The notes beneath the pieces were generated by a model, which was not told where the DNA came from, made no database searches, and worked only from the letters and a program-made list of their open reading frames with translations. This document shows, in pieces, positions 13,904 through 61,932 of a stretch of DNA of 64,000 nucleotides. The translations under genes and the position numbers were made by a program. This DNA comes from Aurelia coerulea (Eukaryota > Cnidaria > Scyphozoa > Semaeostomeae > Ulmaridae). Where the stretch lies: contig CM076943.1 in assembly GCA_039566865.1 (NCBI GenBank), forward strand, positions 12,696,001 to 12,760,000, in the 5' to 3' direction. The stretch's first letter is position 1; every line of letters starts with the position of its first letter.

Positions 13904-14192
13904 CTCGATCTCTAATTAAATTTAGGCCACCAGAGACCAATCACCTTCGACTTGCAGTCACCACGCAGAGCTTTGTTTACATCAGTTTGCTACAAAATAA
14001 AATCCCACGTCGGCTGCATCTTGTGAATAAATAAGTTCATGTCTCTATGGAAGGTCATTTAAAAATCAGCCTTTCAAAGTGTATCCAAAAGCAAGGCCAG
14101 GTCAAAGTGTGAATCTTCTGCTCATAAAAAGTGGACTCCCCAAATCTGTTGACAGCGAATTTTAGAAGTCATCGCTCTCAAGTAGTTTTAAG
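13904..14192 (-). promoter_or_regulatory. PPEF 5' flank / probable promoter region
   Basis: These 289 bp lie between the PPEF start codon and the P element. On the gene's strand they include an ATTGG (inverted CCAAT) box about 25 bp before the ATG and no clear TATA box. The transcription start cannot be located by eye. The last 8 bp (GTTTTAAG) are one copy of the P-element target duplication. Any promoter parts further upstream are now beyond 23549, more than 9 kb away. Confidence 0.4.
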
Positions 14193-14253
14193 CAGGGAGA
14201 TATACACGGGAGAGGAAACGCGCACTGAGTTGCATTCTGCGATGTGATATGCG
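14193..14253 (+). repeat. P element left terminal inverted repeat
   Basis: A 31-bp outer block identical to the complement of 23511-23541, a short diverged spacer, then an 18-bp inner block (14236-14253) identical to the complement of 23483-23500. The two-block arrangement recalls the terminal plus internal inverted repeats that P transposase needs. Confidence 0.9.
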
Positions 14254-14922
14254 CCTCCTTCGCAGCAGATCGCGCATTTTGCAGTGAAAACAAGATGGAA
14301 GCTGTCGTTTGGGCGGACAAGTGCATCTCATTTTTGGATTGAATTTCAACAACAATGGTAAGCATTTTAGGATATGTTAGACATTCCTTTTAACCCTTAG
14401 TGTTTTACCTTTGCATAGTGAGACTCGCTAAGCCATTTTATATCAGGAATTGGCTATAGCGATTAAGTTTCTTCAGCGGTAGCTTAGGCCAGTTCATCTT
14501 TTGCATCACGCTCCAAGCACGCACTTGTGAAAATTTCACCCTGCCCAACCCCGCCCAACTCTCAGAAATTTAAGATATTTGTGGATGGCTTTTGGCAATA
14601 AATCTAGTGAAAAATCTTTTTGAGATAGTATGAGACTCACGAGATATCTTAGTTTTCTTTGGGGGTACTTGCACTGATTGTGCCTTCGTCCTATTCTCAT
14701 GCTTCAGCAACATTCCGAGATTCCAATCGACTCGAAATTTACGCAGTTTTGGGTCATTTCAATCAATCGAATGAGGGTTGGGCAGTTTTTAAAAAAGCGA
14801 GGCAAGTCGAAATGTTGTGCAACATTCGTTTACAAGATGACCATGTTGAAGTTTTGCCCTATAATTTTCTAAAATTGGTCACTAATAAACTTTGATGAGG
14901 ATGTTGCAAAGGTTTTGTTAAA
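14254..14922 (+). promoter_or_regulatory. 5' region of the transposase gene
   Basis: These 669 bp lie between the left terminal repeat and the transposase ATG. They are mostly non-coding. A possible first-exon donor (ACAATG|GTAAGC, GT at 14358-14359) and a possible acceptor near 14705 (CTCATGCTTCAG) would make a 5'UTR intron. There is no convincing additional coding exon and no THAP motif in this stretch. Confidence 0.35.
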
Positions 14923-17649
14923 ATGGAACAAGAAGAAACGCCACCACAGACAAGCTTAAAAAAAGTATCAAATAAGAGGACACTAGAAGACATCACCAAC
15001 ACTGTTATTCCAAAGAAGAGGTTGTTTTGTGATGAGTCAAATAATATCACCAATCTATTTTACAAAGGATGCCCTCTTTTACCAGAAGAACTACTTATCT
15101 ATGCCTGCTTAAAGATATTGTTTCCAGAGGCTCCTTTTCAATCATATTCTGAAGAAAAATATGGATTGATCACATCGCTCATCCACAAAATTTTCCAAAC
15201 TGAATTGAAAAACAAGGATGTCTACAACTACATTTACAGATCCAAAAATAATGTGATCAAGAATCTAGGAAAGACTGAAAGGGGGAGGTTAAGGTGGAAA
15301 GTTTTTGATGAAAATGTTGACACGCTTTTGCTGAAGCATGAGGATAAGATTTTGGAATTATTATTTCAAGAGGACTCTGCTCTTAACCCTGAACTGAAGA
15401 GGGCCATGGAAGAAGCAATTGCTAATGAATGCAAGAGTCAACCAAAAGATGAAAAAGTGAATTTAGAGGAGTTAGAAAAATTTGATCTAAGTGAAAAGTT
15501 TCCTGGTTGGAATTATGCTTATGACCATCAGCAATTTAATGGACACTTTTATTATTATGTGTCAAAAGGTCATCCACAAATTGAAATAATGATATCTAAA
15601 GAGCATGCATGGACTATGTATTTTGAAGGAAAAGAGCGTGATGTAGATTTCAGCTGGTGTAATATGCCAAAGAGGATAGAAACTATTTCTGACATTCAAA
15701 ACTTGCTTACTAACATTCAGTCATTGAAACCATGCCCTGCCATAGATTTTGATAAATTTGCAAGCATTGTTTCAGTTTGTGACAATGATGTAGCATTTAG
15801 AACGAAAAAGAAGGAGCCGGCAGCATTCATTGAGACACAACCATCACTGTTTCACAAGAAAGTAATAAGATCAGCAACTTGCATGATACTCTTGCCAGAT
15901 ATTGACACAATTAGCTCTGTCCCTTGTGACTGTTGCAGAAAAGCTGGGCAATATTTGAGAACTCTACGGTCCATCCAGAGCAACAAAGACAGCAAGGACT
16001 TCAAGCAAAAAAAATTTTGTAGGCTAGATCAGCTGGAACATGAAGAACTATTAAGGCTTGCCAGAGAAAACAGTAAAAAATTGAGAGTAATGAATGAAAG
16101 GATGAAGTACTTGGAAACTTTCAAGAAGAAAATGACATCAGTAGGGAAGAAGACCAATGATGACCTCTCTGTAATATTTGATGATTTGAAAAAAGGGATT
16201 ATAGGGAAACAAAGTTGCTACCAATCACCAGTCTGCAGATGGTCGTCTTGTAACGAAGAGCTCAATAGCTGTGAAGAATTATTTCAACACACGAGAGAAC
16301 ATATTGCAGTTCAAGCTGATGTTGCTCCCTGCTTAAGAAAGTATGAATGTAAATGGGAAAAGTGTACAAAAACCTTTCAGAAAAAAAAGTTACTTGAGAA
16401 TCATTTAGTAAAACACACAGGAGATGCAAAGATTCAGTTTTTTGAGATTCTTTTGAAAGACCAAGCAAAAGCTTTGAACACTGAGGCCCGCCAAATGCGT
16501 TGGCATCCTCTTATCATCAGATGGTGTCTGAGGTTGTATAATAAGTCACATTCTGCTTATAATTCTTTGCAAGGCTCTGGGTTCTTACGATTACCAACTG
16601 GCCGAACATTATCTGACTATAAGAACTTCAACAGACCAGGAGGAGGATGGAATGAACAACAATTGACAGAGATGAGGAAGCGATTTGTAGAGAAGAAATT
16701 AGAGGACAGGGCAAGATGGGGAGGTCTTTTCTTTGATGAGGTTAAGGTGAAGGAGGGCTTGGTGTTTGATCCATCTACATGGGAATTAGTTGGTTTCACT
16801 GACCTTGGTTCTGAAGAGATTGATTTAGAAGGTCTTCTTAGTGAGGATAATAGTGCTTCTGGCAAGAAATGTGCAGATGGATTAGCTACACATGTAATGC
16901 AATTTTTTTTCAAGAGCGTGTTTGCTAATTTTGAGTATCCTTGTGCATATTTTTTGACAAAAGGTATAAAATCCCCGAAATTGAATCATTTGTTTTGGCA
17001 AGGTGTATCAATGCTGCATAGTCATGGTTTTGAGGTGTTGCTGGTTTGTTGTGATGGGGCTTCATCAAATAGAGCATTTATGAAGATGAATACGGAAAAG
17101 GGTGATGCCTTGAGTGTTGGGTACAATTTTTTCAGTCGGCATCCATTGTTCTTGATGTCTGATCCACCACATATCATAAAAAAGTTGCGAAATAATTTAA
17201 GTAGTAGTGGTTTGGGGAAAAAATGCTCTAGAGTTCTAAAGAGGAATGGATCTCTCATTATTTGGAAACATGTTGAAGCTGTCAATGGAAGAGAAAAGGC
17301 CAGAAGGGCAAGATATACAAAGCTTACCGATGCACACATCAACATTGATAATCTCAGTAAGATGCGAGTAAAGTTAGCGGTAGAAACCCTTTCAAGAGAA
17401 GTTGCAAATGACATGGCTATGAATGACCACTATGCGACATCTGAGACTCAACAGTACATCAATATTTGCAGTGACATGTTTCATGCCTTTAATAGCAGAA
17501 GTCCACTATCCTCACCACAAGATGAACGAATAAATATTTTACAAGGAGCAATGGGCTATTTTGAATCATGGAAAGCTAGTTTAAGTACAGAGGATAAGAA
17601 AATTCAAGAAAAGAGTTTTATAACACGGGAAACAATGTTTGATTTACAA
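14923..17649 (+). CDS. P/THAP9-like transposase, exon 1 (909 codons)
   Basis: Cut-and-paste transposase of the P superfamily, the enzyme expected to mobilise this element in the nucleus. The start ATG has A at -3 (AAAATGG). Residues ~438-463 and ~476-499 form two C2H2 zinc fingers (C-x4-C spacing in both). The RNase H-like core follows. Asp605 lies in GLFFDEVKVKEGLVFD, Asp711 in LLVCCDGASSNRAF, and DPPHIIKKLRNNL starts at 747; all are P/THAP9 signatures. A segment resembling KLTDAHIN...KMRVKLAVETLS comes next. No N-terminal THAP zinc motif is visible, so DNA recognition may rely on the C2H2 pair. The exon ends FDLQ at a perfect donor (CAA|GTAAGT). Reading on gives only seven more residues before a stop. 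No frameshift or internal stop. Confidence 0.9.
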
Positions 17650-18534
17650 GTAAGTATTCTGACCTCAATCTGAACATTTATAGAATGAAAGGAACAGATT
17701 AGTTTTAACCCAGGGTAATAAAAAGCCAGCCTGGTTTTTGTTAAAGTTAATGGAAACTGCTTATTTGTTACTTTAAAAGCTCTATTAAGCCATTTAGGGC
17801 TTGTTTAATTTCGGGAAAATCCAGAGGTTCGGTTGGGCTTATTAGGGAGGGGGTGTTTTTTCACAAAATCAAAGTGCTGGGAGCTTAATAGAGAGGGGAG
17901 ATTATTTAAGATTGTGGCTCCGGTGTCGGGGCTTATTTGAGAGGGGTTTTATAGAGAGGAGTGCTAAAAGAGCTTTTACGGTAGTTAGTGGGAAATTTTT
18001 CCTTTTTAGTGACACCTGTTTTTACAAACTGTTGGTCTGTTTGCAGGATTTTTTTAACAGTACAGTAGTATCCGGGATACAGTATAAGAAACAACTCTTT
18101 CAATTTCAGGTCTGACGTGTTTCTAATAATATAAGATAAACGTCAAATCAGGATAAAGTTTCTTATTAGAAAAATCATGTACTATCGATCAACTACTCAG
18201 ACGAGCTTTATGATTGTGGTGCAACACATATTATTTTGATTTGTATATGTATAAATTTTCACTCATATAGGAAATCATACGATTATTCCAAGAAGGTGCT
18301 TTTTGCTTCATTTGCATACAAAATTCTTGTTTTTATTTGAACAGCTACAGTTCAATTCAACTGGAGATTTTGAATGTGAAACAAGCTTTTTTCAGACCTG
18401 GGCCAGTTTCTTATAAAATAGGGTATTATTTTGAAAATCAGGGTGTGTGTTTCTTTAATTTGCGTTTCCTATATGTGGGACACTACTGCATTTTTCTGAG
18501 AAAATTCTTAGTGTCTCTCTCTGCATTATTGTAG
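17650..18534 (+). other. Transposase intron
   Basis: 885 bp with donor GTAAGT and acceptor CTCTCTGCATTATTGTAG. It is phase 0. The interior carries AGTTTCTTA-type phrases (near 18085, 18160 and 18405), so it has absorbed family B MITE remnants. Retention would truncate the protein seven residues after the donor. Confidence 0.8.
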
Positions 18535-18885
18535 GTTGCAATCCATGGGTTCACAGAGTTGGTGAAGTATATCAGTGGTAGCAGGTTCAAAGAGGTTCAA
18601 GGTGACTGTTATGTTATACCCAAGCGTATAAGCCAAGATTGTGTGGAGTCCTTCTTCTCAGTTCAACGTCAGATGTGTGGAGGAAATACCAACATGACAG
18701 CCTACAGTTATGGATACAATCTAAATGGGATTTTGTCTTATAAATCATCTAGTCTTCTGAAGGGTGTGCAAACAAGTTATACGGTAAATTCTAATGAGAT
18801 AGATTCTCTTGCTGTTGATACACTTCCCAAGCGGACAGCAAGAGATTCTATCAAACAAGACACTGAATGGACATTGTTTGTTTGA
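18535..18885 (+). CDS. P/THAP9-like transposase, exon 2 (C-terminal 116 aa)
   Basis: The exon starts VAIHGFTELVKYIS, which joins FDLQ in the manner expected for P-type transposases. It then has PKRISQDCVESFFSVQRQ, the conserved segment that holds the last acidic residue (Glu) in the P/THAP9 fold by family analogy. The stop is at 18883-18885. Together with exon 1 the protein is 1025 aa, longer than Drosophila P transposase (about 750 aa). Without this exon the enzyme would lack the likely third catalytic residue, so correct splicing is probably needed for activity. Confidence 0.85.
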   Translation, partial: VAIHGFTELVKYISGSRFKEVQGDCYVIPKRISQDCVESFFSVQRQMCGGNTNMTAYSYGYNLNGILSYKSSSLLKGVQTSYTVNSNEIDSLAVDTLPKRTARDSIKQDTEWTLFV

Positions 18886-18982
18886 TGCATAAACACCTGT
18901 TGTCCCAGAAAAGGTAGGCAGATTTGGTTGGCAACAGCAATGTGAATTTAGTTTTGATCAATATGGCTATTACTCCCAAAAT

Positions 18983-19395
18983 ATTTTTTCTTGATAGTTA
19001 ACTTTAACTTACTGTACATGTACAATAGATACATTGTTTGTTGATATTGGTGCTTTACTATCGAAATTAAACACTGGGATTAAAGCAAAATTAAGAAACT
19101 ACGCAATTGGACCAGCAAACAGAATATGATATGATGTTCCAGCAATGTTCAAATTTTATCAAAGGTTATTGTTGATTTATTTGCTGTGCTTCAAATTTTT
19201 TGGCCAAAACGCCAAATCTCTGATTTGGAGATGGATGTAAATTTGAGCTTTCAATGTTAATATTTCTAGTCTCAAAGTACCAATTCTAGCAAACAAAGTA
19301 TCTGTGCTCAAGTTGACTATTAAAGAAATTTTTGAAAGAGATTAGCCATTGATTAAAGCTAAATTCACATCACTGGATCCAAACAAATCTGTATT
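18983..19395. repeat. Inverted-repeat block 1 inside the P element
   Basis: The left arm (TTGATAGTTAACTTTAACTT... to about 19070) is complementary to the right arm at 19245-19350 (...GCTCAAGTTGACTATTAAAG). The same arrangement, including the trailing AAATTCACATCACTGGA, recurs at 20568-20830 in direct orientation, so the block is duplicated about 1.58 kb apart. Confidence 0.6.
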
Positions 19396-20372
19396 CTTTT
19401 TTCCTGAGAGACCCAGTGAAATATGTACTGAATGAGACAAAACTTTTCTACGTAACAGTAAGCAGCTACCTTTGAAAACTACAGTAAAGGGAATAAACTA
19501 CATATATGCTTTTGAAGTGGACACATCAAATGCTGCGCTTATTTTAAAACATGTCCATTGCATGCAAATTTGTGAAGATTTTGAAAGGTGTAAGCTTCAC
19601 TAGGTATTGTGACATTTGCATTGTTTGTTGTCATGCTTTCACAAGAAGTTGGAAAGCACCATTTTATGTACAGTAAGTGTCTTGTGTAAAGTGTCTTATT
19701 CTAACAAATATTGTCCATTCAGCCGTTTTTAAATTTGTTGAGGAACAGAGGACTGCCCCTTTTGTCTAAGACTTTTGTTATGCTGGTAAAGTTCAAAGCA
19801 GATCAACAGCTGCAAAACCTATTTCACCATGCACGAGAATCTCTTTGTTTCTTTGCTAATCCTTGTTTGGATTGTGGTTCGGAGCTTCCTATGATATTAT
19901 GACTTTACTATCTCTGTGGCATTTTCAATACAGTATTCTACTGTATCTACTGCAGTAAAAGCATTTTCACACAAATGCAGATGGCCCCCATGTTTAAACA
20001 AAAAGTTGTGTTTTGTTTGATATGAAATTCATATTGTGTTATGAAGCTTGAAATGATACTTTGTTACTGTATGTACAATCAAGGAGTTGGGCAATTCATA
20101 AACACAAGGTACTGTATAGTCTGCTAAGTTAGCTCCTGTTCATTTACTGGTTCTGTACCCTAATATATAAAACAGCTTGCAAACAGCTTTTCAATTTAAT
20201 ACAACAAAAATAGCAATTACAGGTGGCCCAAAAAGTTTACCAATTTGAAATGTTTATGATGTACCGTATAACTGTGTTTATAGCAACACTGTCACTTAAT
20301 TTTAGGGCCTGGTTACAGGGAGTTTTTACCAAAGGGCTGGGATTTCAGCCCTCTTACTCAAGGTTAATCAAA

Positions 20373-20487
20373 CCTGGTTTTCATTAAATCGTAATTCATC
20401 GCTGATCATTGTCTTACAGCATTGGCAATGATACCGGATGTTCTAAGACAATGATCAGCGATGAATTGCGGTTCAGTGAAAACCAGG
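20373..20487. repeat. Short palindromic repeat inside the P element
   Basis: CCTGGTTTTCATTAAATCG... at 20373 pairs with ...CGGTTCAGTGAAAACCAGG at 20487. The arms are about 45 bp with an unpaired centre. A likely small MITE; no clear target duplication. Confidence 0.6.
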
Positions 20488-20567
20488 CTTTAGCGCTTAG
20501 CTACTTCTGTGATTCCAGCGCCTGGCATTAAAAAATCGCAATTTCACTTCACAATCACTCTCAAAGT

Positions 20568-20830
20568 GTTCCTTGATAGTTACTTGAACATAGATACCTT
20601 GTTTGTTGATATTGATACTTTGAGAGCAGACATGTTAGCTTGAAAGCCCAACTTTGCCTCGTCCTGCCGGATGATGCCAAAGGTCTGGTTTGCAAGTAGA
20701 CGCAAATTTGAGCTTTCAAGATTGATATCTCTGTTCTCAAAGCACCAACACCAACGAACAAGGTATCTATGTTCAAGTTAACTATTAAGGAAGATTTTGA
20801 GATTGCTTAGCCATTAAATTCACATCACTG
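20568..20830. repeat. Inverted-repeat block 2 inside the P element
   Basis: The arm at 20568-20660 (CTTGAACATAGATACCTTG) is complementary to the arm at 20722-20806 (CAAGGTATCTATGTTCAAG is an exact 19-bp match). It is homologous to block 1 in the same orientation. Confidence 0.65.
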
Positions 20831-21876
20831 GAGTCAACCAAATTTGTATATATTTTTGGGACACCCGGTAGGAGTGTGGCAACCAGAAAGAAAAGCCTTC
20901 ATCGTATTCAAATCGGTAAACTTTTTAAGACCTCAAGTACAGTCCATGGAACTGATATTTGCAGTACATTATCTTTTACTTTCTTTGACCTTCACTTCTG
21001 TTCATCAACTGAAAGAAAGAACATTGACTTAGGCACCTGTGAAAGTGTAAGAGGGAATAGAAATTCTACCAAAACACACAAAAGCAATTTTACAGCATAT
21101 GGTTGTACAATTAATGAAAATTATTGTTTTACACAAACTTTTTATCTTCGATGTGATATTGAAAGTGGTATATGATAATTATTTTTATTAATTCTGAAAC
21201 CATATGCTGTATTCTGTAATGAGGAGAGTAGATATCACATAAATGTATTATCTACTGTATGTAAATACATACTACTGTATGTACTGTACAATATGTACTA
21301 TATATTAAATTTGTTTTATATATTTGGTGAACTGTTGTGACCCTGTGAAAGAATATACTGTATATTATATGGTTTAACAATGAATGAGACAAGGAATACT
21401 TTAAAGCAAAGCATCTTATTGAAGTGAATAATGATAAAATGACTGTGCAGCAAGTTGTTTTTATTCTTGTCCTTCTTCTGATGATAACATTTAAAATAAG
21501 AAGGTCAGATTTTTATTGTTTAAGCACCATTCACATACTCAACATTAGCTGTTCAAAGAAATGCCATTGACAACAAATTTCTGTGATATTTTTTAGAAAA
21601 TATAACATTTCATAAAGCTCCATTTTACCAAATTTTTGTTTGCATTAAGATTTTACATGCAGAAGTTTTGTCTAACTTAGGTTATTTCTCCGAGCAGCTA
21701 CGCAATCTACAGGCATGCTATTCTGGCTAACTGTTGAAGATGAAAGCAAAGCTTGGTAATCTAGCACTTTAGTGACAGGCAATACACATGTTACATTTTA
21801 GCTTAGTTGCGCAGTCTTTATATTTTGTAAACAAAGCTGTTTCATTTGGTCATTTTTGAACTGAGAGGGATCTGCA

Positions 21877-21909
21877 TTCATTCATTCATTCATTCATTCA
21901 TTCATTCAT
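21877..21909. repeat. (ATTC)n microsatellite
   Basis: About eight copies of TCAT/ATTC immediately 3' of the stop codon of the 503-aa gene. Confidence 0.9.
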
Positions 21910-23420
21910 TACAAAATTATTTCATTTTTTATTAGAATTACCTCATCTGGTTTAACAATTGCAATAGGCTCTGTTTTGATAGCCAAGATGAACTTGGGCA
22001 CGAGAACTGTTTTTCCCTTTCCACTGTAGCTTGGTTTTCCTAGTGCTTTCAATAGCTTGGTAAGTTCTTTACCATTAAGCTCCATGCAAATTTCTTCCAC
22101 CCTTTCATGCTGCCCTAACTCCACTAGAATTCTCCTTAAGCTCTCACTTTCTGTGTAGCTGTTTCTTAGTTCTGCAATTATTTCTTCTTTTTCAGTTAAT
22201 TTTCTTTTCTTTGCTGCTTTGTTTCCATTGCCTTTCAGAGCCTGACGCAAGGCAACACTTTTCTTTGCAGGTGCAACATTTATTTTTTTGCACATTGAAT
22301 TCTGCTTTGACTTCAAGAAAAAGAATACTGTGCTCTTCAGTATGATCACAGAAGCTCCTATCATTGATAGATCAGAGCATTCTTCCAGTCCTAATGCACT
22401 ACTCCAAAGTGCTCTGATCTCCTTATCTTTTGCCATTTGAGCGAAGCACTGATTGACAGTATCTTTCATGTGTTGCTCGATACCATATTTGATAAAAACT
22501 GATGCCTTATTATGAAGGACTTTAAAAAACTCTAGGAAGTGTTCATTTACGGCAAATTTGTAGCCTTCATTTCCACATAAAACATCTTGCCCTATTTCTC
22601 TAAATATGCTTTCTAGTTTAATCTTCTGCACTTCAATCCTTTCCTCCGATCCCAACTCTACCCTCAGTTCAACAACAGCAGGCAAGTCTCTGGTGTCATC
22701 TCTTGCTCTCTTTATGCACCATCCCCCATGGTGAAGAATGCCCGCATTCTCTAACTCGTCTTCCTGTGGTTCATTGATCTTCACTCTGGCGGGGAGAGGG
22801 ACTGCTGGTATTTCAGGGGTCATTGCAGAAGTTGTTGTCCAGAAATGCTGTAAAATATGCTGCAAACAGCAAGAACTACCATCACAACTGTCAACACCAC
22901 AAGCATCAAGAACAGAATGCCAAGCTTCTGAATTTTCAACGGCTGACCTAAAATCCTTAAACTTTCTCTCTTTCAAAACGAACGAATTTAATTGAGGGTT
23001 CTTTTTCCCAACGTGAAGGCAGTTGTTTAACCCATTGCAACAAAAATGAATGAATCTGCAGGCTGCAGCCGTAAAACGTATGTTGAAAATTTTTTCAAAT
23101 ATCATAACTTCATTTTCAACACAATGTGCTGGATTAGTGAGCCTCGCTAACACCTCTTCAAACTTAAACTGTAACTCTTCTACACTAAAAACACTAAAAC
23201 TTCCACCACTAACTCCACTACCACCACTGCGACTACTAACAACTTCGACTTCTACCTGATGCAACTCATCACCATCTAAACTCTCCTCTTCATCTGCACT
23301 ACCTCCACCACTTAACTGACTATTACTGACACCGACCTCCTCACCTTCTCCGCTTCCATTTCCAAAAATCCAGCTCAAATCCATTTCGTCTTCTTCCCGG
23401 TCGATCTCCACAGCAAACAT
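21909..23420 (-). CDS. Second gene of the P element: 503-aa protein of unknown function
   Basis: I do not recognise the family. The start at 23420 lies about 120 bp inside the right end of the transposon; a second Met is 12 codons on. Residues ~1-85 are acidic and Ser/Gly-rich (EEDEMDLSWIF, ADEEESLDGDE). The middle is globular-looking with Cys clusters (AACRFIHFCCNG near 117; CGVDSCDGSSCC near 174) and the phrase GILHHGGWCIKRARDD. Residues ~385-450 are Lys-rich with a probable nuclear signal (AAKKRKLTEKEE) and a coiled-coil-like stretch. Residues ~446-478 (ELTKLLKALGKPSYSGKGK...LVPKF) resemble a SAP-type DNA-binding helix pair, weakly. No introns or breaks. Its place inside the terminal repeats implies a role in transposition or its control, but that is inference. 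Confidence 0.8.
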   Translation of the reverse strand: MFAVEIDREEDEMDLSWIFGNGSGEGEEVGVSNSQLSGGGSADEEESLDGDELHQVEVEVVSSRSGGSGVSGGSFSVFSVEELQFKFEEVLARLTNPAHCVENEVMIFEKIFNIRFTAAACRFIHFCCNGLNNCLHVGKKNPQLNSFVLKERKFKDFRSAVENSEAWHSVLDACGVDSCDGSSCCLQHILQHFWTTTSAMTPEIPAVPLPARVKINEPQEDELENAGILHHGGWCIKRARDDTRDLPAVVELRVELGSEERIEVQKIKLESIFREIGQDVLCGNEGYKFAVNEHFLEFFKVLHNKASVFIKYGIEQHMKDTVNQCFAQMAKDKEIRALWSSALGLEECSDLSMIGASVIILKSTVFFFLKSKQNSMCKKINVAPAKKSVALRQALKGNGNKAAKKRKLTEKEEIIAELRNSYTESESLRRILVELGQHERVEEICMELNGKELTKLLKALGKPSYSGKGKTVLVPKFILAIKTEPIAIVKPDEVILIKNEIIL

Positions 23421-23482
23421 CCTTCGTTGCTACGCAAGCCAATTGTCGTTGCTCCGTTGCTACGTCAACACGCGAACGAGGT
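23421..23482 (-). promoter_or_regulatory. Right subterminal region / promoter of the 503-aa gene
   Basis: These 62 bp contain two copies of CGTTGCTACG (23425-23434 and 23455-23464), a CCAAT box (near 23438) and TACGTCA. They sit between the start codon and the inner terminal block. The repeats could serve transcription or transposase binding; the sequence does not say which. Confidence 0.4.
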
Positions 23483-23541
23483 CGCATATCACATCGCAGA
23501 CAGCGCCAGCGCGCGTTTCCTCTCCCGTGTATATCTCCCTG
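23483..23541 (-). repeat. P element right terminal inverted repeat
   Basis: The inner 18-bp block 23483-23500 and the outer 31-bp block 23511-23541 are exact complements of the left-end blocks. GTTTTAAG follows at 23542-23549. Confidence 0.9.
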
Positions 23542-23549
23542 GTTTTAAG

Positions 23550-28231: not shown

Positions 28232-28371
28232 TGTAAAGGTTTCCAGCAAGTAAATATAAACAAACAAGTTTCATTTCATAAGTTCTCCATCTTTCCAGTC
28301 TCGTGCTCCCAAACAATAACAACAAGGGCGCATGCCCAACAGAACACCCAAACGAGGCTAATAATGTTACA
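28232..28371 (-). repeat. Gypsy 3' LTR
   Basis: 140 bp, one mismatch (CTCCCAAAC against CTCCAAAAC) to 32789-32928. Confidence 0.9.
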
Positions 28372-28444
28372 CCTTTCCTCCAACAAAAACAAACAAAGGA
28401 ACTGTAATAAAGAGAAATTAATTGTCTTTAAAGTTTGTTAATCA

Positions 28445-31336
28445 TTAGTGTCCAGCAAGGTAGTCAGGCCGAATTACTCTTCTGCCACTTCTTGTCGTTA
28501 CTGGTTGGTAAAAGTTCAATTGCCTGTGATCGAATCTTGTCTCAGCAGGTCCGTTGGCGGCTGTCTCTGCGTCAACATCATCAGGTCGTAAGTGAGGTGC
28601 CTCTTGTGGATCCAATGGCTCCACTTCCGGTTGGTGGTCCTTAAGAGGTTGAGTCATCGCTCCTTGTTCTCTTCTTGGGAAAACGATTGAATCTTCTTCA
28701 TCAGCGTTGAATGGCTCTTTGGTATGGCGTAGAAACTTTCGATTTCGTCTAAAGATCTTTCCATCTTCTGTTTTTACATTATAAGATCTTACACCAACTT
28801 GCTCTGTGACACAGCCTTTGGTCAAGCGGCCTGTTCTGTCATTATTGCTTGGTTTCATCCGAACCACATCATCCTTCCTTAATGTGCTCAGCTCCTTTGT
28901 GCCTCTGTTATAATACTTTGACTGTATCTCTTTCCTCTGACGAATTTTTTCTTGAACACCTGTGACTACCTTTGGTTTGAGGAGCTTCTTGGAAATGGGA
29001 AGCAGAGTTTTGGCTCTTCTGCTGAAAATACGCTGAGAAGGAGAGCTGTCCATCCCCTCAGAGGGCGTGTTTCGCCATTCAAGCAGCACAAGATAGAAAT
29101 CATTGCCAGATTCAGCTGCTTTTTTCATCAGAATCTTTGCAGTTTTGACCGCATTTTCTGCTTTGCCATTGCTTTGAACATACCCTGGCGAGCTTGGCTC
29201 GGTGGTAAATTCATATTCCTTGGCGAAATCCTGGAATTCTTTGGAAGAGAATGGTACATTGTCACTCATGAACTTATCTGGTATGCCATGCGTAGAGAAG
29301 TGTCTCTTGAGCTTCTTCTTAACTTCCCCAGCAGTTTTGTAGAATAGACGATCTATCTCGAAGTAGTTGGAGTAGCAATCCACAGTACAGAGGAAGTCTT
29401 TGTTGTTGACTGTGAAAATGTCGGCAGCAATGATTTGCCAGGGGCGGCTTGGGATTTCACGGGGAATGAGGGGTTCTTTGGCCTGGTCGTTGTGAAATAT
29501 GTTACAAATTTCACATTTTGAAATGAAGTCGGTCAGATCTTTGTTCATGCCAGGCCAATAGACTGCTTCTCTTGCTCTTCTGAGGCAACTCTGTATTCCC
29601 GTGTGTGCCACGTGCAGTTTCTCTCGAATCTTTTGGCGTAGTGTCTCTGGAATTACTGCTCGCTGACCCTTGAATATTACGTCATCTTGTGTTGCTAGCT
29701 CATCTCGAACTGAGAAGTATGGATGAATGCATTGAGGGAGGGTCTCTTTGCTTTCTGGCCATCCATTCAAAATTGTTGCCTTCAGTGATTGCAAAGTATT
29801 GTCACATCTGGTTTCTCTTTGGATTTCTTTCAGCTGTGGCTCAGATATTGGGAGATGATTTATCATATGGATAGTTTCGACTTCTTCTTCAGTTTCTGAC
29901 TTCTGTCTCTCACTTGTCGGTAGGTATGCTCGAGAGAGTGTATCTGCTAGAACCATTTCTTTGCCAGGTTTATAGCAGATTTTAACATCGTAGGACTGCA
30001 ATCTTAACAATAGTCTTTGCAGTCTCTTTGGAGCAGATGCGAGTGGGTTGCTGATGATTGAGACAAGTGGTTTGTGATCTGTCCAAAGTGTGATCTCTCT
30101 GCCATATACGTAGGTATGATGATGTTCTACTCCAAATACTTGTGCAAGCAGCTCTTTCTCTATTTGGCTGTAATTTTGCTCTGCAGGGGTGAGTGCTCTG
30201 CTTGCATAGGAGACTGGACGCCCCTCTTGCATGAGCACAAAACCAAGCCCCTTCGATGATGCGTCACCTTGGCCTTCTGTTGCTACTCTATGGTCAAAAT
30301 ACTTTAGAACTGGTGCCTCGCATATTGCTTTTTGTATGTCTGTGAATGCTTTTTCGTGAGCTTTTCCCCATACCCATGGTGCATCTTTGTGGGTCAAACT
30401 TCTCAGAGGTTCGCATACTTCTGACAGTCTGGGGAGAAACTTGGCCAGGTATTTTACCATGCCAATGAACCTTTGTACGCCTGCAACATCTTGAGGTTTG
30501 TCCATCTTTGTGATGGCCTCCACTTTGGCGGGGTCTATTTTCAGACCGTTCTGTGTTAGGGTGTGACCAATGAAGGAAACTTCATTGCATTTAAACTTGA
30601 ATTTGTCTTTGTTCAGCTTGATGTTCTTTTCTTGGCATCGTTTCAAAAGTGCTAGCATGTTCTCATCATGGTTTTTAACAGCTTCTTCGTATGTTTCCCC
30701 TCTTCCGGTAATGAGTGCATCATCAGCGACTGCATATACGCCAGATAGGCCTTCAATGCACTGATCAAATCTGTGCTGGAAATGCTCTGAGGCTGGTTTA
30801 TCCCAAAGGGCATCCTGAGGTACCTCCAACGCCCCCATGGTGTTTGGAACTTTGTAAGCATGCTTGATTCGTCATCGAGCTCTATTTGAAGATACCCTTC
30901 CTTCAGGTCAATTTTGCTGAATACCTTGACACCTTCTAGCTCTGGCAACACGTCGTCAATGAGCGGTAAAGGGTAATGGCTTCGTTTCAGTGCTTTGTTG
31001 AGGTGTTGTGGATCGATGCATAACCTCAGTTTCCCATTTGGCTATTCTGCAATGACAAGGTTTGATACCCAATCTGTTGGGCCTGTAACTTTCTGAATGA
31101 CATGAAGATCTTCCAACCTTTCCAACTCAGCCTTGAGCTTTGCTTTGAGAGCGATGGGGACTCTGCGGGGTGGCATGACAACAGGGGTTTGTGATTCATC
31201 AACGTCTAAGTGCAACTTGCCGGGCATATTACCAAGTCCTTCAAAGACAGATCCAAAGTGGTTCTCTATATCTGCTGCACTGAGTGGAGCCTCTGCGGTG
31301 GCTGACAAAAATGTTTCTGGGACAGCATGTTGTTGT
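28445..31336 (-). pseudogene. Gypsy pol: reverse transcriptase, RNase H, integrase (broken)
   Basis: The reverse transcriptase starts near 31180 (ELERLEDLHVIQKV, WVSNLVIAE). An in-frame TAG at 31039-31041 follows. FSKIDLKEGYLQIEL lies near 30920, and a frameshift near 30800 comes just after RMPFGI. The catalytic box reads VADDALI (near 30740). RNase H follows with DASSKGLGFVLMQ, IEKE and WTDHKPL. The integrase has an HHCC zinc region (HVAHTG...C-x2-C near 29520) and catalytic D (AADIF), D (SDNVPF) and E (NGKAENAVK), all present. The 797-codon segment from the shift to the stop at 28445 is otherwise open. Nearest in look to K02A2.6-type gypsy elements of invertebrates. Confidence 0.85.
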
Positions 31337-32082
31337 GCTTGTTGACATGGGCTGTGTGAAGCAATGCTATTAGAGCTAAAATTGTCTATATTTGAATGAA
31401 AAATATTATCATAATTTACAGTCAATAGGCCCATCTTTTGCGCAGCATTAGCTCCTAATAATGGTACATAATCCCCTTTCACAATAATAAATCTGACCGT
31501 GTACTCAGTCTGGGTCTTGGGGTTTACTACCTTAAGCTTACAAATGCCATTTATGGGTAATAGAGCTTTACTGTACAGGCGCAAAGAGTGATCAGATTTT
31601 TCAACAATTGTGCCTGAAGGAACAAAATGTTCGGGAAGAACATTACAGGTAGCACCTGAGTCAAGTTGGAAGGAAAATTGCCTGCCTTGTATAATCATAG
31701 AGGCAAAGAGTTTATTCTTAGGAGGAGATTGGGACACAGCATTGATTTCCAAATTGTTTTGGGATGAAATTTCAACAATAAGAATTTCTTCATCACTAGA
31801 AGTGGTTTCTTCTTTCACTGCATGTATCTTGGCTTTAGAAAATGTATCTCTCTTACCTGGTGAGTTCTGCACGCTGCATTTTTCAACAAAATGGTTTCTC
31901 TTACCACAACCAGAACAAAATTTACCATAGGCTGGGCAATAATCTTTGTTTTCTCTATGGCTACGTCCACAAAATTTGCAATCTGATATAAAAGCTCTGG
32001 TGTCTCCTGTGGCTCTTCTTGGGGTGCTTTGCTTCCTAACATAATTTGCCATAAGATCATGATTATCAGCTTGGCCTGCCAT
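31042..32082 (-). pseudogene. Gypsy gag C-terminus and protease
   Basis: This open segment begins in the nucleocapsid with two zinc knuckles; the second is CSGCGKRNHFVEKC (C-x2-C-x4-H-x4-C). It continues into an aspartic protease with the active-site triad in FQLDSGATCNVLP. It then runs in frame into the start of the reverse transcriptase and stops at the TAG at 31039-31041. Upstream codons (about 32240-32083) continue the same frame but contain a TGA near 32148. Confidence 0.8.
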
Positions 32083-32216
32083 TGCTTTTACTTGAGCGGT
32101 AGTTGTTTCTGTTGCCCTGCATAAATCGATGCATCTAGATAATGATCATTTTGGTTCCTGCAGCAGCTTACGTCGTACAGCATTATTATGAATTCCACAA
32201 ACAATTCGGTCACGTA

Positions 32217-32750
32217 TCAACTCATCATCAAGAGCTCCAACCGCCAAGTTACTGCAAGGGCACGCAAAGAAGCAGCATAAGTTTCAATTGATTCTGTAGG
32301 TTCTTGATTACGATTATTGAATTTATAGCGTTCGTAAATTACATTTGTTTCACCAATGCAGTAAGTATTCCATAATTCAAAAATTCTCTCAATGTTTTGA
32401 CGTTCATCCTCATCCTCGTACGGAAGTGAATTGTGTATACTGAGAGATTCCGGTCCTATACAGGTGATGAAAGCAGCAACTCGAAAATTATCAGGTTTAG
32501 ACTTCAAATTCGTAACGGTTTCATAGGCATCATATATTTGTTTCCACTGTTTCCAATTCTCTGATAAATTGCCTCCTAAATGTAATCTTGGGGGTAATGG
32601 CACGTTAGATATAAACGAAGATGTTGCTCCATTTCCTTCAGGAGAAGCACTGGGCCCAGACGCATTTTGATCTGGACTTGTCATCACTACTGTAAGTCGA
32701 GACGCTGTACAGCTTGAACAGAAACAAAGATCAGCAAGGCAATCTTCCAC
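32217..32750 (-). pseudogene. Gypsy gag N-terminal part
   Basis: Capsid-like segment with LSENWKQWKQIYDAYE and ...YKFNNRNQEPTESIETYAASLRAL, typical of retroelement gag proteins. The first Met is at 32750; a second at 32684 (MTSPDQNASG) may be the true start. A frameshift near 32250 moves reading into the frame that continues to the zinc knuckles. Confidence 0.75.
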
Positions 32751-32788
32751 TTGCTACACATCAAAGATGGGTGTTTCACCTGACACCA

Positions 32789-32928
32789 TGTAAAGGTTTC
32801 CAGCAAGTAAATATAAACAAACAAGTTTCATTTCATAAGTTCTCCATCTTTCCAGTCTCGTGCTCCAAAACAATAACAACAAGGGCGCATGCCCAACAGA
32901 ACACCCAAACGAGGCTAATAATGTTACA
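32789..32928 (-). repeat. Gypsy 5' LTR
   Basis: 140 bp. On the minus strand it precedes the primer-binding-type site at about 32771-32788 and gag. Confidence 0.9.
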
Positions 32929-56952: not shown

Positions 56953-57444
56953 TTATTTTCTAATTCATTGCATTCAACCGAAAATAACTTTATTTATTAA
57001 CTAAACTACAATACACAGATAGTAGTGAGGTCAGTCTAGCAAGATTGTATATAGGTGTGCCAAAGTAGAGCAAACACGGAAAGCACATTATTCCTATCAC
57101 TCGTACATTCATTTGATACATGTAACCTGAAACTAACCTGAATCTCTGCAAACAGGGAGGGGATGGGCGGGAGGGATCCTATCTTACATAAAAGTACTTG
57201 CTATCGACCTGTGATTCTCCACGCCTTGAAGAGCTTTTTATATTTGCCTACTAAGCACGCCTCACGGAGAGCGTGCAACAGTATTCCCTTAAGAGCTTAA
57301 CAATGCTGCTACAAAATAGTTTCCTATTGTACTGTTAATAAATTCCTTTATTTTCTAATTCATTGCATTCAACCGAAAATAACTTTATTTATTAACTAAA
57401 CTACAATACACAGATAGTAGTGAGGTCAGTCTAGCAAGATTGTA
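56953..57444 (-). repeat. Right-hand split repeats B2, A2, B1 of the Ngaro element
   Basis: B2 56953-57049, A2 57178-57345, B1 57348-57444. B1 and A2 are contiguous, as expected of the sequence that templates the circular junction. Confidence 0.85.
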
Positions 57445-57613
57445 ATTTGTCAAGAGGGGGCACTCCCGGGGGGCACTTTTTCTGAGCCTATAATCAAACG
57501 CAAAACCTAAATTAATGACTAACACAACTTTGTTAGCAAAATCATGAAAAGATGGAATTTCTAACTATTTGTTAATTTCTAACACAACATATCTCAACTG
57601 ATGATTGTATATA
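57445..57613. other. Ngaro 3' untranslated segment
   Basis: Between B1 and the recombinase stop. It contains a GGGGGCACTCCCGGGGGGCAC motif of a type also common in unrelated repeats. Confidence 0.5.
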
Positions 57614-58644
57614 CTAAAGACCAAGTCCAAGTGACACTGAAAGTAGATCATCTAAACTGTCCTTCACATAGCCATCCTTTGCGCGTTCGGACTTCCATCG
57701 TCCATGCCTTTTTTGAAGAGTCTATCTGTAATACCATTATTCGCCGCTGCTGAAGCGCCTCCAGAGCGCAAACTATGTAATCCGAATTGTTTTGGGTTCA
57801 GTCCTATATCTCCAAGTAACTTCATGACGGCCTCTCTGGCTGTTGTATAGGATACGGGGTGATTATTTTTCCTAAGTATGTAACACTTGTGGGTCTTCAG
57901 ATAAGATACTGAACGAAACAAGTAGTCTTCAGATTCATCGCCAATTCCTACCATAACAAAATATCGCTGCAATGTTTCAACCGGGCAAAGAGAAGTATTT
58001 GTCTTTGCAATGAATGAATAATTGCCATCTCGGTAAATGTCAGTCTTGCTCTTTTCAATGAAAATGGTCATATGTGTACTGTTAAATGTAATATCACAGC
58101 GGCGTAGATTCGCCACTTCGCTAAATCTGAAGAAACCAGCTAAACTCAGTAAAACAATAACAAAGTTACGCAACTGTAGTAAGTTAGCTGATGTACCGCC
58201 AATATGATCATAAATAAGATGTAAGTGCAATGATGATATAGGCTCTTTCTTTTGAACGACTTTCTTTGACGATCGTTTCGCTGCCTCGAGCATGTTCTTA
58301 CAAAGGTCTGAGCTGGTTGGGTCGTCAAGACAGGCCATCTTGTGGAAATGCTTGATGGCATAAAACGCACTTTCAATTACACTAAGTGACTCCTTTGACT
58401 GGAGCAGCTTTGTCAGATATAATGCAACGTGAATTGGATTTGCAGGAAAGTTTGATATCTCAGGAAATATTTCGGACCAAGACAACCATTTGTTAAAGCC
58501 GGATTTATATCTATCTTGCGTGTTCTTAGACCTTGATTTTGACAAAAAAGTAGGAATATCCATGGCTAGCTGTTTCAGTCGTTCATCTTGAACTTGATGT
58601 TTGATTGCTGTTTCAATTGATAGAGGTGAAAAAGGACAATTCAA
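57614..58644 (-). pseudogene. Ngaro tyrosine recombinase (frameshifted near the active Tyr)
   Basis: This enzyme would integrate the circular DNA intermediate. From Met at 58644 the ORF shows the Arg of box I (AGFFRFSEVANLRRCDI, near residue 185) and box II HSLRSGGASAAA (H-x2-R). It then falls out of frame at an A6 run (57709-57714 on the plus strand) and stops at 57664. In the next frame the expected RHGRW and the catalytic Tyr (GYVKD) follow, with a stop at 57614-57616. A one-base indel thus removes the nucleophile, or it is a sequencing error in a homopolymer. Confidence 0.85.
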
Positions 58645-58739
58645 TCTTAATTACGATGAAAAGTCTGTGACTGCTGCCATACAAGAGACAGACTTCTCTC
58701 CTATGCTTATTATGAATACAAGAAACAATTAGCCATGCA

Positions 58740-58930
58740 TATCTTGCTGCCCTCTAAGGCACAGCAGAGGTGTTTTAGCCTCCAAGGCATTAGTTATTTA
58801 AAATTTGACGAAAAATTAAGCGTATTACTAGCCTCCAAGGCAGATTACTAGCCTCCAAGGCAGATTACTCGCCTCCAAGGCACTTACAGTTACTCTAGAT
58901 AGCTATCACTGACCTCCAAGGCTCAGCAGA
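58740..58930. repeat. CCTCCAAGGC repeat cluster in the Ngaro spacer
   Basis: CCTCCAAGGC occurs six times (near 58781, 58831, 58851, 58871, 58912 and variant CCTCTAAGGC near 58753). Three of them lie in a 20-bp tandem ATTACTAGCCTCCAAGGCAG. The core GCCT...AGGC is an inverted repeat. It lies between the RNase H and recombinase ORFs. Confidence 0.75.
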
Positions 58931-58953
58931 ACAATTAGCATAATTAAGATTAC

Positions 58954-60132
58954 TTATGATTCGATTTTAAGTACTATAATTCCTCCTTTCATACAAGTCA
59001 AACCAATGACAGAAAATGGGCAAGAGCCAAGTATTATAACATTATCCATATCTCTAAATATCATGTAATCTTTAACAAAGTAACGAAAAGTGTTATTTTC
59101 TGCACATAGCATTGGCCAGTAGACAGCTGATTCCCAGAACGGTATTACCATGGTACCACGTACCTTCCTTTCAGTAATATATCTAACAACTTTCGGAATA
59201 TCCTCAACAGGAGGAACAAGTAAGTTATTTTCGCATTCCCAATTTTGTAAAAAAGCATCAACTGCCTCTGATCCTGGGCAGAAAAATTTAGAGTTAAATC
59301 GATGAAGTTTCCTGTTTTGCAAGTTTGCAAATCTGTCTATAGTAAATGGACCCCATTTTGAGTTTAGAAAGGCGAAAAAGATGGGCGTTATCTGCCAATC
59401 TCCGACATCGGTGTACTTAGAAAGTTTGTCAGCATCAGCATTCAATATTCTAGGAATCCAAGAGACCTGTAGCAATATGCCATTTTCTCTACAAATTGAA
59501 TCAATTTCTAAAGCAATGGAATGCAGCTCATGAATTCTGCTCCCAACGTGGACTATTCTCGATGCTGCATAATTATCAACTTCCAAAATAACTCTCCTCG
59601 ATTTAATTTTGGGGAGGAAACTTTTTAGGGAAAAAAGTACAGCAGTCAATTCACACCAAGTAGAACTTTTGATTGTTTCTTCAAATGACAACCTCCTATG
59701 GGCTTTAAAACAATTATCGAGTACCGCTCCTACTCCTGTAGCGCTAGCATCTGAAGATATACCTACCGATGTTAGATTAGAGACTCTTATGTTTCGGAAA
59801 TTTAACGATTTTATATTATTTTGCCAAAAAAGAATTTCTAAATGAGCACCCGCAAAGTTAAGTATGTTTAGGGCAGCATCCCAGGAGGATCGACCTTCAA
59901 TTACAGCATATAAGTATCTTGATTTGAGACTTACGATATTTCCTAAAACATATTTTGTTGACAATAATTTACCTGCGAATTGAGCTAACTTTCTTGAAGT
60001 TGTATTGGGCTTTTGCAAAAGTATATTAGTTTGATTCAATATTGAATCTATCCGAGTTTGTGGTATGAATAGAAAATTGTTATTAAAATCCATGGAAACC
60101 CAATCCATGTTAATAATTTTGTTGGCTCCCAA
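58954..60132 (-). CDS. Ngaro RNase H and C-terminal pol region
   Basis: The frame from about 60095 carries the end of the reverse transcriptase connection (NNNFLFIPQTRIDSIL) and RNase H with DASATGVGAVL, a Glu in STWCELTAV, Asp in LEVDNYAASR and Asp in NADADKLSK. A conserved DIRS-type C-terminal block follows (WGPFTIDRFANLQNRK, PGSEAVDAFLQNWE, IPFWESAVYWPML). The stop is at 58954. The upstream reverse transcriptase is in another frame, with the switch near 60090. Confidence 0.8.
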   Translation of the reverse strand: MGANKIINMDWVSMDFNNNFLFIPQTRIDSILNQTNILLQKPNTTSRKLAQFAGKLLSTKYVLGNIVSLKSRYLYAVIEGRSSWDAALNILNFAGAHLEILFWQNNIKSLNFRNIRVSNLTSVGISSDASATGVGAVLDNCFKAHRRLSFEETIKSSTWCELTAVLFSLKSFLPKIKSRRVILEVDNYAASRIVHVGSRIHELHSIALEIDSICRENGILLQVSWIPRILNADADKLSKYTDVGDWQITPIFFAFLNSKWGPFTIDRFANLQNRKLHRFNSKFFCPGSEAVDAFLQNWECENNLLVPPVEDIPKVVRYITERKVRGTMVIPFWESAVYWPMLCAENNTFRYFVKDYMIFRDMDNVIILGSCPFSVIGLTCMKGGIIVLKIES

Positions 60133-61190
60133 ACAGATTTTTCATCATTTGCAACAAAACCCGCCTTCGCAAGGGTATCTTTAACATTATTAGAGTGCAG
60201 TTGAGCCTTAGGTTTGGAGTCAGCAATAGCAATACCATCATCAAGATAAACACATATTCTAATTCCTTGAGAACGCCAATGTTTTACCAAAGGTCTTAGA
60301 AGCTTTGTAAAAATATACGGAGCGGAGCACATGCCAAAAGGTAGAACGGTAAAAACAAAAAAATTTTCAACTCCATCGAATATCCAGGAAAAACCGAGAA
60401 AGGTTTGATGATCAGGAAAAATATCAACATGATGATAACCTTGTTTCAAATCAAATTTAAAAACAAAAGAATCTGGTTGTAAATAGTTCTCAAAGGAACG
60501 CCAATCATCAAAACGAATATTCTCTTTAAAGATATGTTTGTTTACATATCGTAAATCAATAATCAATCTCAATTTTCCTGAAGAATTCGCAGCAACAGAT
60601 AGGGGACTCACAACATGTGGGGTAAAACTGACTTCCACCGCTGAGCCACGCCTTAACAGTTCTAAAATGCTTTCAGAAACAAAATCTTGATTCAAATAAG
60701 AAGATTTGTTATTTTTAAACAAAGCCTGCTTCGGTGTATTTATGAGAGGTATTCTGTAACCAAATTTAATCAATTCAATAACACTCTCTGGTGCCTTAAT
60801 ATGTTCCCAGAAGGCAACATTTTTAGCCAAATTTCCTTTCACACGTGTTTCAGTGGACATATCCAAATCAAAATCAAGACAACAATCTTTTTCAAAACGA
60901 AAATCAATTTCATTGATAAATAAACCATTAAAATACTCATCTTGGTTTTTGCTGGAGTTGAAGTCTCCCAAAAGAGGCTGGGTTACTGGTGATTGGGCAA
61001 TTGCGGCGCCAGTGTCCGAACTGTCCGCAGGCCAGGCAAATGTCGGTTGGTTTTGCTTGCATCCTGAAGGCTGGACGCTGAAACTGGGGCGTATTGTTGA
61101 AGTAGCCTGGTCTTCCGGCCGCGGGGAAACGAAATGGCTGTGGCTGGGGAAAGCACGCTTGTGGTTGCAAAATTTGCTGTCTTCCGGCAA
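60048..61190 (-). CDS. Ngaro reverse transcriptase
   Basis: Copies the element RNA into DNA. Motifs are LRLIIDLRYVN, FKFDLKQGYHHVDIFPDHQ, VLPFGMCSAPYIFTKLLRPL and the catalytic VYLDDGIAIAD (YxDD). The N-terminal part overlaps the gag-like ORF in a different frame, a common DIRS arrangement. The family frame is lost near 60090 just after LLTWIGF; the reading that ends at 60048 after that point is off-frame. Confidence 0.85.
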   Translation of the reverse strand: MPEDSKFCNHKRAFPSHSHFVSPRPEDQATSTIRPSFSVQPSGCKQNQPTFAWPADSSDTGAAIAQSPVTQPLLGDFNSSKNQDEYFNGLFINEIDFRFEKDCCLDFDLDMSTETRVKGNLAKNVAFWEHIKAPESVIELIKFGYRIPLINTPKQALFKNNKSSYLNQDFVSESILELLRRGSAVEVSFTPHVVSPLSVAANSSGKLRLIIDLRYVNKHIFKENIRFDDWRSFENYLQPDSFVFKFDLKQGYHHVDIFPDHQTFLGFSWIFDGVENFFVFTVLPFGMCSAPYIFTKLLRPLVKHWRSQGIRICVYLDDGIAIADSKPKAQLHSNNVKDTLAKAGFVANDEKSVWEPTKLLTWIGFPWILITIFYSYHKLG

Positions 61191-61749
61191 GAAATGGCTG
61201 CATAGGACTGTTGTGAAATTTCTGCCTGGTTGCGGTCTTTCTTTTAATCATTGCTCTGGACTCCGCTGCAAGAAGCTTTTTCTCATCCTCGCTGTCGCTC
61301 GCTATCTCATCTGACACGTATTCTTCCACCGTTGACCAGCCAGCTGGGGATCTGTCAGCAATCTTAATCAATTTGTTGCGTTTGTGTAGCTCCTTACAAA
61401 TCGAATTTAACCGCTTCTTGGGCCTTGTCTTCGCTCCTGTTTCCAAAAGTTTAGTTACTTCTTCTATTCGATCGATTATTCCATCGTTGAACTCAAATTG
61501 CATCTTGTTGGATTTGAATTTGAATTCTCTGTGCTGGCAAGATTTTTTCTTTGAATCGTCATCTGACTCGTGCGTTAGCTCACGTTTCAAACTCTTAAAC
61601 TTGCTATCGAAGTACGACTGCATCAGGGACAATGCCTCGCTGTTATCCAAGGTGTCCTGGCCATTTTGCGAAGGTGTTTCTCTGATTTCCATTTCATCGT
61701 CTAACGTTTGTCTTGTTCCACTCTCAGAGTTTCTTTCGGTCGCAGACAT
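60937..61749 (-). CDS. Ngaro gag-like protein with zinc knuckle
   Basis: A 270-aa ORF starting 16 bp downstream of repeat A1. It has an acidic N-terminus, a Lys-rich middle (residues ~55-190) and a Gln/Phe/Pro-rich stretch (FPQPQPFRFP). A CCHC knuckle CLACGQFGHWRRNC (C-x2-C-x4-H-x4-C) follows near residue 240. Presumed nucleocapsid of the particle. Complete. Confidence 0.8.
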   Translation of the reverse strand: MSATERNSESGTRQTLDDEMEIRETPSQNGQDTLDNSEALSLMQSYFDSKFKSLKRELTHESDDDSKKKSCQHREFKFKSNKMQFEFNDGIIDRIEEVTKLLETGAKTRPKKRLNSICKELHKRNKLIKIADRSPAGWSTVEEYVSDEIASDSEDEKKLLAAESRAMIKRKTATRQKFHNSPMQPFLAGRQQILQPQACFPQPQPFRFPAAGRPGYFNNTPQFQRPAFRMQAKPTDICLACGQFGHWRRNCPITSNPASFGRLQLQQKPR

Positions 61750-61764
61750 AACGCAAACAGCACA

Positions 61765-61932
61765 CCTATCTTACATAAAAGTACTTGCTATCGACCTGTG
61801 ATTCTCCACGCCTTGAAGAGCTTTTTATATTTGCCTACTAAGCACGCCTCACGGAGAGCGTGCAACAGTATTCCCTTAAGAGCTTAACAATGCTGCTACA
61901 AAATAGTTTCCTATTGTACTGTTAATAAATTC
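61765..61932 (-). repeat. Ngaro split repeat A1
   Basis: 168 bp, identical by eye to 57178-57345. Confidence 0.9.

Follow-up and report, generated by a model that had tools for sequence, protein, structure and literature searches.

The window, i.e. the whole stretch of 64,000 nucleotides of Aurelia coerulea DNA analysed here (C1:12696001-12760000 of a 574-Mb, 294-contig assembly), carries at positions 14193-23541 a transposon of 9,349 bp, and the evidence supports its description as a complete two-gene element of the P superfamily. It is delimited by 31-bp terminal inverted repeats (TIRs) at 14193-14223 (+ strand; CAGGGAGATATACACGGGAGAGGAAACGCGC) and 23511-23541 (- strand), which match at 31/31 positions, and comparison of the flanks showed the 8-bp target-site duplication GTTTTAAG at 14185-14192 and again at 23542-23549 (8/8). 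An 18-bp inverted block is located 44-61 bp from the left end (14236-14253, + strand) and 42-59 bp from the right end (23483-23500, - strand). Recomputation thus returned the ends, repeats and duplication exactly as given in the original prediction. When up to three mismatches were allowed, the terminal 23 bp were found twice in the window versus not at all in 100 shuffles, and the 18-bp block twice, versus a mean of 0.05 after shuffling. In the sections of PMC7776569 consulted, the transposase sites of the P element are placed 9 and 21 bp inward of its 31-bp repeats; as the 18-bp block begins 12 and 10 bp from the inner edges of the TIRs, it is a candidate transposase-binding site.

The element contains two convergent genes, separated by a 3-kb spacer (18886-21908). 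Both had been predicted to be open along their length, and their frames indeed measure 924 and 506 codons, whereas no open frame exceeded 182 codons when the element was Markov-shuffled 200 times. The gene models themselves had to be modified. Gene 1 (+ strand) reaches its last catalytic residue only if one intron (17650-18534, GTAAGT...TAG) is removed, which joins exon 1 (14923-17649, 909 codons) to exon 2 (18535-18885, with the stop codon) in a product of 1,025 amino acids. The frame of gene 2 (- strand) extends up to a Met codon at 23420, corresponding to the predicted 503 amino acids, but translation more likely starts at Met13 (23384, an internal MDL), where proteins P0001 and P0002 begin; gene 2 then spans 21909-23384, with its stop, and encodes 491 amino acids.

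The spacer contains inverted and direct repeats (18909-19402, 20220-20926 and 21091-21211) that look like nested miniature inverted-repeat transposable elements (MITEs), as well as an additional internal CGATGTGATAT at 21149-21159. The MITE-like repeats probably predate the split from an older copy on C12, as the blocks aligned with that copy span the spacer too. About 140 bp present in the copies on C14, C6 and C12 are absent from the window copy near position 19877 (about 5685 of the element), which therefore seems to carry a small spacer deletion.

Gene 1 encodes a P-type transposase core. Pfam recognized the N-terminal part of the RNase H domain (PF21787, E 8.4e-20) and the GTP-binding insertion domain (PF21788, 7.2e-13), both encoded by exon 1, and the C-terminal part of RNase H (PF21789, 4.8e-7), encoded by exon 2. 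The solved P transposase 6p5a aligned with residues 696-862 (E 7.1e-9), its D303 standing opposite D711. The three acidic catalytic residues of the superfamily are present: D605, invariant in 12 aligned proteins and taken as the first Asp by its position, D711, by this alignment, and E947, assigned by motif. Of the eight residues that contact GTP according to PMC7776569, six are identical (K385, V401, S409, F443, N447 and D528), while K400 is replaced by Arg and D444 by His; seven of the eight were read from the 6p5a alignment and D528 was placed through the motif beside E947.

Two features set gene 1 apart from the P-element transposase. C2H2 fingers of the GLI/ZIC type, encoded by exon 1, occupy the position of the THAP domain, and no THAP family was returned for exon 1 (E up to 1) or its first 302 amino acids (E up to 10) in a Pfam scan that began with exon 1, 730 bp into the element. 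Furthermore, the protein terminates 78 residues past the catalytic Glu, with no P-element C-terminal domain fused to it. Such an early end is shared by 21 of 22 relatives bearing the motif (50-79 residues past the Glu), P0117 (266 residues) being the exception. Of 114 relatives, 46 contain the intron-donor sequence, and 43 of these stop within 45 amino acids beyond it, suggesting that the intron position may be old. In a tree of 86 proteins, gene 1 clustered with P0005-P0008 with a support of 100/100; named relatives include Oculina (P0059).

Further copies in the same genome confirmed the ends. The 68-bp left end and the right end each had at least 40 matches (the best 40 of 147 and of 142 candidates, respectively, were scored), so that the copy counts are lower bounds. 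These matches form at least 26 pairs within 20 kb, of which 16 span 818-824 bp and the others 554 bp to 15.3 kb; 23/26 are ≤3.4 kb, so that copies without room for the two genes are common. On neither side of a right end at C1:11417494 (+ strand) was a left end located within 20 kb. Leaving aside three copies with only one end read (L031, L016 and L020) and the C6 copy, which has no left end, perfect 8-bp duplications flank 18 of the 20 distinct elements for which both ends were read (that of the window among the 20); all 18 duplications are different, with a weak palindromic preference near GTTWAAAC, and the exceptions are L009 (7/8 match) and L027 (no match).

Large copies with both genes, another expectation of the original prediction, were found on C14, C12 and C6, and those on C14 and C12 have 8-bp duplications that differ from GTTTTAAG. 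The opposite outcome, in which copies with these ends would consistently lack gene 2, was not observed. The C14 copy (9,492 bp; duplication ATACACAG) is 98.8-99.7% identical to the window element in its main aligned blocks; its gene 2 is open, and a frame change near residues 721-744 disrupts its gene 1. The C6 copy is 99.4-99.7% identical and has both genes open, the left 159 bp of the element being gone. The C12 copy (15.3 kb; duplication ATTAGTAG) is 94-97% identical, with nested insertions and both genes broken. As four copies share the two-gene form, a sequencing or assembly error was ruled out as its origin. At the left junction of the C6 copy (L023, C6:6088565-6098164), a repeat of the right flank (GGCACCATCTTACAATGGTA) meets the element at ACAATGGTA, which is common to both, a pattern resembling microhomology-mediated or template-switch repair.

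Ten copies of about 820 bp, whose ends are nearly those of the element, have a mean mutual identity of 98.5% (96.7-99.8%). Their similarity, together with that of the C14 copy and its own duplication, shows that the family has been mobile recently. The one ~820-bp copy compared with the element, L024, matched its left 645 bp at 88% and its right 152 bp at 93%, indicating that these short copies probably stem from a closely related sister element and not from the window copy.

Searches with each gene showed that the pair recurs well beyond these close copies. Gene 1 gave at least 51 matches (the best 50 of 446 candidates were scored) at 42 loci. Gene 2 gave at least 90 (the best 87 of 99 candidates were scored) at 61 loci, the clustering being based on 63 matches and the other 27 being extra pieces at the same loci. 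Gene 2 was found within 15 kb of 13 of the 42 scored gene-1 loci, for 0.16 expected by chance. The arrangement is convergent at 11 of these 13 loci; at the other two (C2:7967219-7973072 and C17:6777983-6784687) both genes are on one strand, with gene 2 downstream. Among scored loci with a gene-1 identity of at least 52%, gene 2 is present beside 12 of 13, and the C2 locus, at 43%, has it as well.

Three diverged two-gene elements could be delimited, with gene 1 63% or 56% and gene 2 50% or 40% identical to those of the window. Each has both genes, related ends and a perfect duplication: C22:3929611-3939938 (CTTTGGAC), C22:11735483-11745667 (GTAAAAAC) and C1:35555245-35564436 (CCCCCAAC). In the C22 pair, the end on the gene-1 side is shorter and partially matches the opposite end. 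Perfect 8-bp duplications thus flank six two-gene elements (those of the window, C14 and C12, the two on C22, and C1:35.56M); a further locus, C1:45.67M, has both ends and flanks that do not match. Several branches of the family have kept the two genes together.

Both genes are constrained. Compared with the older C12 copy, gene 2 showed a pooled, uncorrected ratio of nonsynonymous to synonymous rates (dN/dS) of 0.31 (15 synonymous and 18 other changes; Fisher p 0.0015) and gene 1 one of 0.37 (18 and 27 changes; p 0.0019), both values being pushed upward by the decay of the C12 copy after its insertion. The C6 and C14 copies differ from the window by 10 and 5 changes in exon 1 of gene 1 (ratio 0.98) and by 2 and 8 in gene 2 (ratio 0.26), too few to judge. 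Between subfamilies, three comparisons of gene 2 gave a dN of 0.45-0.61 versus a saturated dS of at least 1.9. Gene 2 is under purifying selection.

Gene 2 encodes a well-defined orphan protein family, with four relatives in the protein database (27-76% identical). For one of them, P0002, the contig has a size of 478,765 bases, as does that of the gene-1 relative P0005; the simplest explanation is that both lie on one contig of another genome. Residues 216-385 (counted from Met 23420), which contain a GW-IKRARD motif, gave a confident structural model on five sequences (predicted local distance difference test, pLDDT, 89.5; predicted template-modelling score, pTM, 0.84). Neither this middle domain, searched against solved and viral structures, nor the low-confidence model of the whole protein (pLDDT 65), searched against solved folds, had a match at E ≤ 0.001, and VIA-align Z was below 8 in all comparisons with solved structures. 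The C-terminus (ELTKLLKALGKPSYSGKGK) has a SAP-like look by eye; Pfam returned nothing for this piece, and the idea was dropped.

A more distant family was examined for a comparable arrangement. Two of 21 loci at 34-38% gene-1 identity, on C19 and C4, are 99.5% alike over 4.9 kb and carry an 817-codon transposase frame and a convergent 425-codon frame. The latter matches PF12596 (Tnp_P_element_C) with an E value of 0.0025. The transposase frame stops soon after a weak match to the C-terminal part of RNase H (residues 743-771 of 817, E 0.057); a motif scan of this frame for the catalytic Glu returned nothing, and neither ends nor a duplication were found at C19 or C4. In this family too, a convergent second frame thus seems to accompany a transposase frame that has no C-terminal domain fused to it. 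The second frame (L077 600-1874, and L078), to which the weak PF12596 match belongs, may contain a C2H2 finger (CETCGASYQTVAGIRRHTNMKH) by eye. YLGGYVIRKL in this frame resembles YDAGWCIKRA of P0003 and YLAGYIAFKL of P0117; this motif, present in 3 of 119 proteins, was chosen post hoc and counts for little.

These findings suggested to us that the two convergent genes probably encode the transposition machinery together, gene 2 providing an accessory subunit of the transpososome. Gene 1 would be the catalytic subunit, combining C2H2 fingers in place of THAP with an RNase H DDE core and a GTP-binding insertion domain; its product would bind the ends, cut, and insert the element with an 8-bp stagger. 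The product of gene 2 would be a co-inherited subunit of the same complex. It might hold the transposon ends and contact target DNA, as does the P C-terminal domain, absent from gene 1. This domain is described in PMC7776569 as joined to the RNase H domain by a flexible linker and touching both transposon and target DNA, which makes it plausible that its function could be provided in trans. Replacement of the C-terminal domain is the most likely specific role for gene 2, though we propose it tentatively, somewhat short of an even chance; a general accessory role in transposition is likelier, and fairly probable. More doubtful, yet possible, is a scheme in which a whole branch of P elements has a split transposase, with the target-contacting C-terminal domain supplied by the convergent gene, in parallel to and independently of RAG1/RAG2, and gene 2 as its most diverged form.

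Several observations weigh against this interpretation. A relationship to the P C-terminal domain was not detectable in the sequence of gene 2, and was rejected at that level because the comparisons were not significant. Gene 2 had no Pfam family above the cut-off and no relative by sequence among solved structures, and neither PF12596 nor PF22824 was among the families returned for it or its four relatives at E up to 10. The model of its middle domain shows two beta hairpins, whereas the C-terminal domain of the P element is all-helical in the portions of PMC7776569 consulted. The PF12596 match in the distant family is below the curated cut-off (18.8 versus 22.6 bits), in a frame that is open in C19 and broken in C4, and the gene-2 family could not be aligned with this second frame (L077, L078), with no significant similarity. 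As to linkage, no gene-2 match accompanies scored gene-1 loci at C9:8.51M, at 46-49% identity (4/4) or at 42% and below (24/24). Conversely, at 48 of the 61 gene-2 loci, gene 1 was not among the scored matches (the best 50 of 446 candidates) within 15 kb; many of these solitary loci are short or interrupted, with long open frames at C3:12.97M and C10:4.69M. Finally, no listed gene-1 relative is on a contig of the same size as that of P0001.

We considered the possibility that gene 2 encodes a regulator or self-protection protein, such as a repressor or an antagonist of host silencing, rather than a subunit of the transpososome. The lesser conservation of gene 2 compared with gene 1 (50% versus 63%, and 38-40% versus 56%) and its lack of detected homology to transposase domains would fit such a role. 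Yet, gene 2 has been kept with gene 1 across subfamilies under purifying selection, and the second frame of the distant family weakly resembles a transposase domain, not a regulator. We regard this alternative as unlikely, though the most serious one. That gene 2 was captured from the host, or is cargo that plays no part in transposition, is quite improbable: the small number of database relatives and the many solitary loci are in its favour, but the capture would have to predate the subfamilies, and it accounts poorly for a gene found beside 13 of 42 gene-1 loci, in convergent orientation at 11, and for the shared contig size of P0002 and P0005. That gene 2 belongs to a second transposon inserted into the P element, to which the MITE-like repeats of the spacer might point, is very improbable, as the convergent order is found again in subfamilies whose ends and duplications differ, and no TIRs surround gene 2 among the 25 longest of 75 inverted pairs. 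The preferred reading remains that gene 2 acts as an accessory subunit in transposition.

The element resembles the P element of Drosophila, as far as described in the sections seen of PMC7776569, by its perfect 31-bp TIRs, 8-bp duplications, subterminal sites, GTP-binding insertion in RNase H and DDE residues. The Drosophila element, however, is 2.9 kb long and encodes a transposase with THAP and a fused C-terminal domain, whereas 9.3 kb, two convergent genes and C2H2 fingers are found here, with no fused domain. With zebrafish Pdre2/THAP9, the portions of PMC10983969 available indicate that it shares 8-bp duplications, CA...TG ends, subterminal repeats and internally deleted copies; Pdre2 differs by its 13-bp TIRs and a THAP9 gene that includes the C-terminal domain. 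The classification in the P superfamily that had been proposed therefore holds, with the transposase core, DDE residues, 8-bp duplications and CA...TG TIRs with subterminal repeats all present; the THAP and fused C-terminal domains of canonical P/THAP9 proteins, and the single gene of canonical P, are lacking.

In contrast, it is the gene arrangement that recalls RAG-like transposons, which, according to parts of PMC7204232, have convergent catalytic and accessory genes between terminal repeats, the accessory gene being less conserved. These elements differ by a RAG1-like/Transib transposase, 5-bp duplications and a kelch/PHD accessory protein; here, P-type Pfam families and 8-bp duplications are found instead, and gene 2 had no such Pfam match. 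Also comparable with gene 1 are P-like transposases of molluscs and other invertebrates without the C-terminal domain (P0080-P0099), which combine a TNP-like RNase H with a GTP-binding domain and are about 30% identical to it; the 11 members bearing the motif end 62-71 residues past the catalytic Glu.

Among the open-licence PMC papers listed by literature searches, no title or abstract opening described a two-gene P element, which is not proof that such an element is missing from the literature or from databases. In the P element, a classic among eukaryotic transposons, one gene encodes the transposase. A recently mobile branch with a conserved, uncharacterised second protein would point to the possibility of P-type transposition by two subunits, and would offer, beside RAG1/RAG2, a tractable second case for studying how subunits are acquired by a transposase or split off from it. 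The role of gene 2, as an orphan family, is open to experiment.

Searches of viral-contig and phage collections gave no copies of the element. The sole genome-contig match, L001 (JACERO010000093.1; 3,981 bp), is filed as a metagenome-assembled genome of the archaeon Nitrosopumilus; it encodes an interrupted P-like transposase that looks divided into exons and introns, and is probably a eukaryotic contamination. Elsewhere in the window, frames that by eye resemble a Gypsy-type retroelement are found at 28232-32928, between 140-bp direct repeats that are 99% identical, and frames resembling, again by eye, a DIRS-type retroelement at 57178-61947, between 183-bp repeats at 97% identity.

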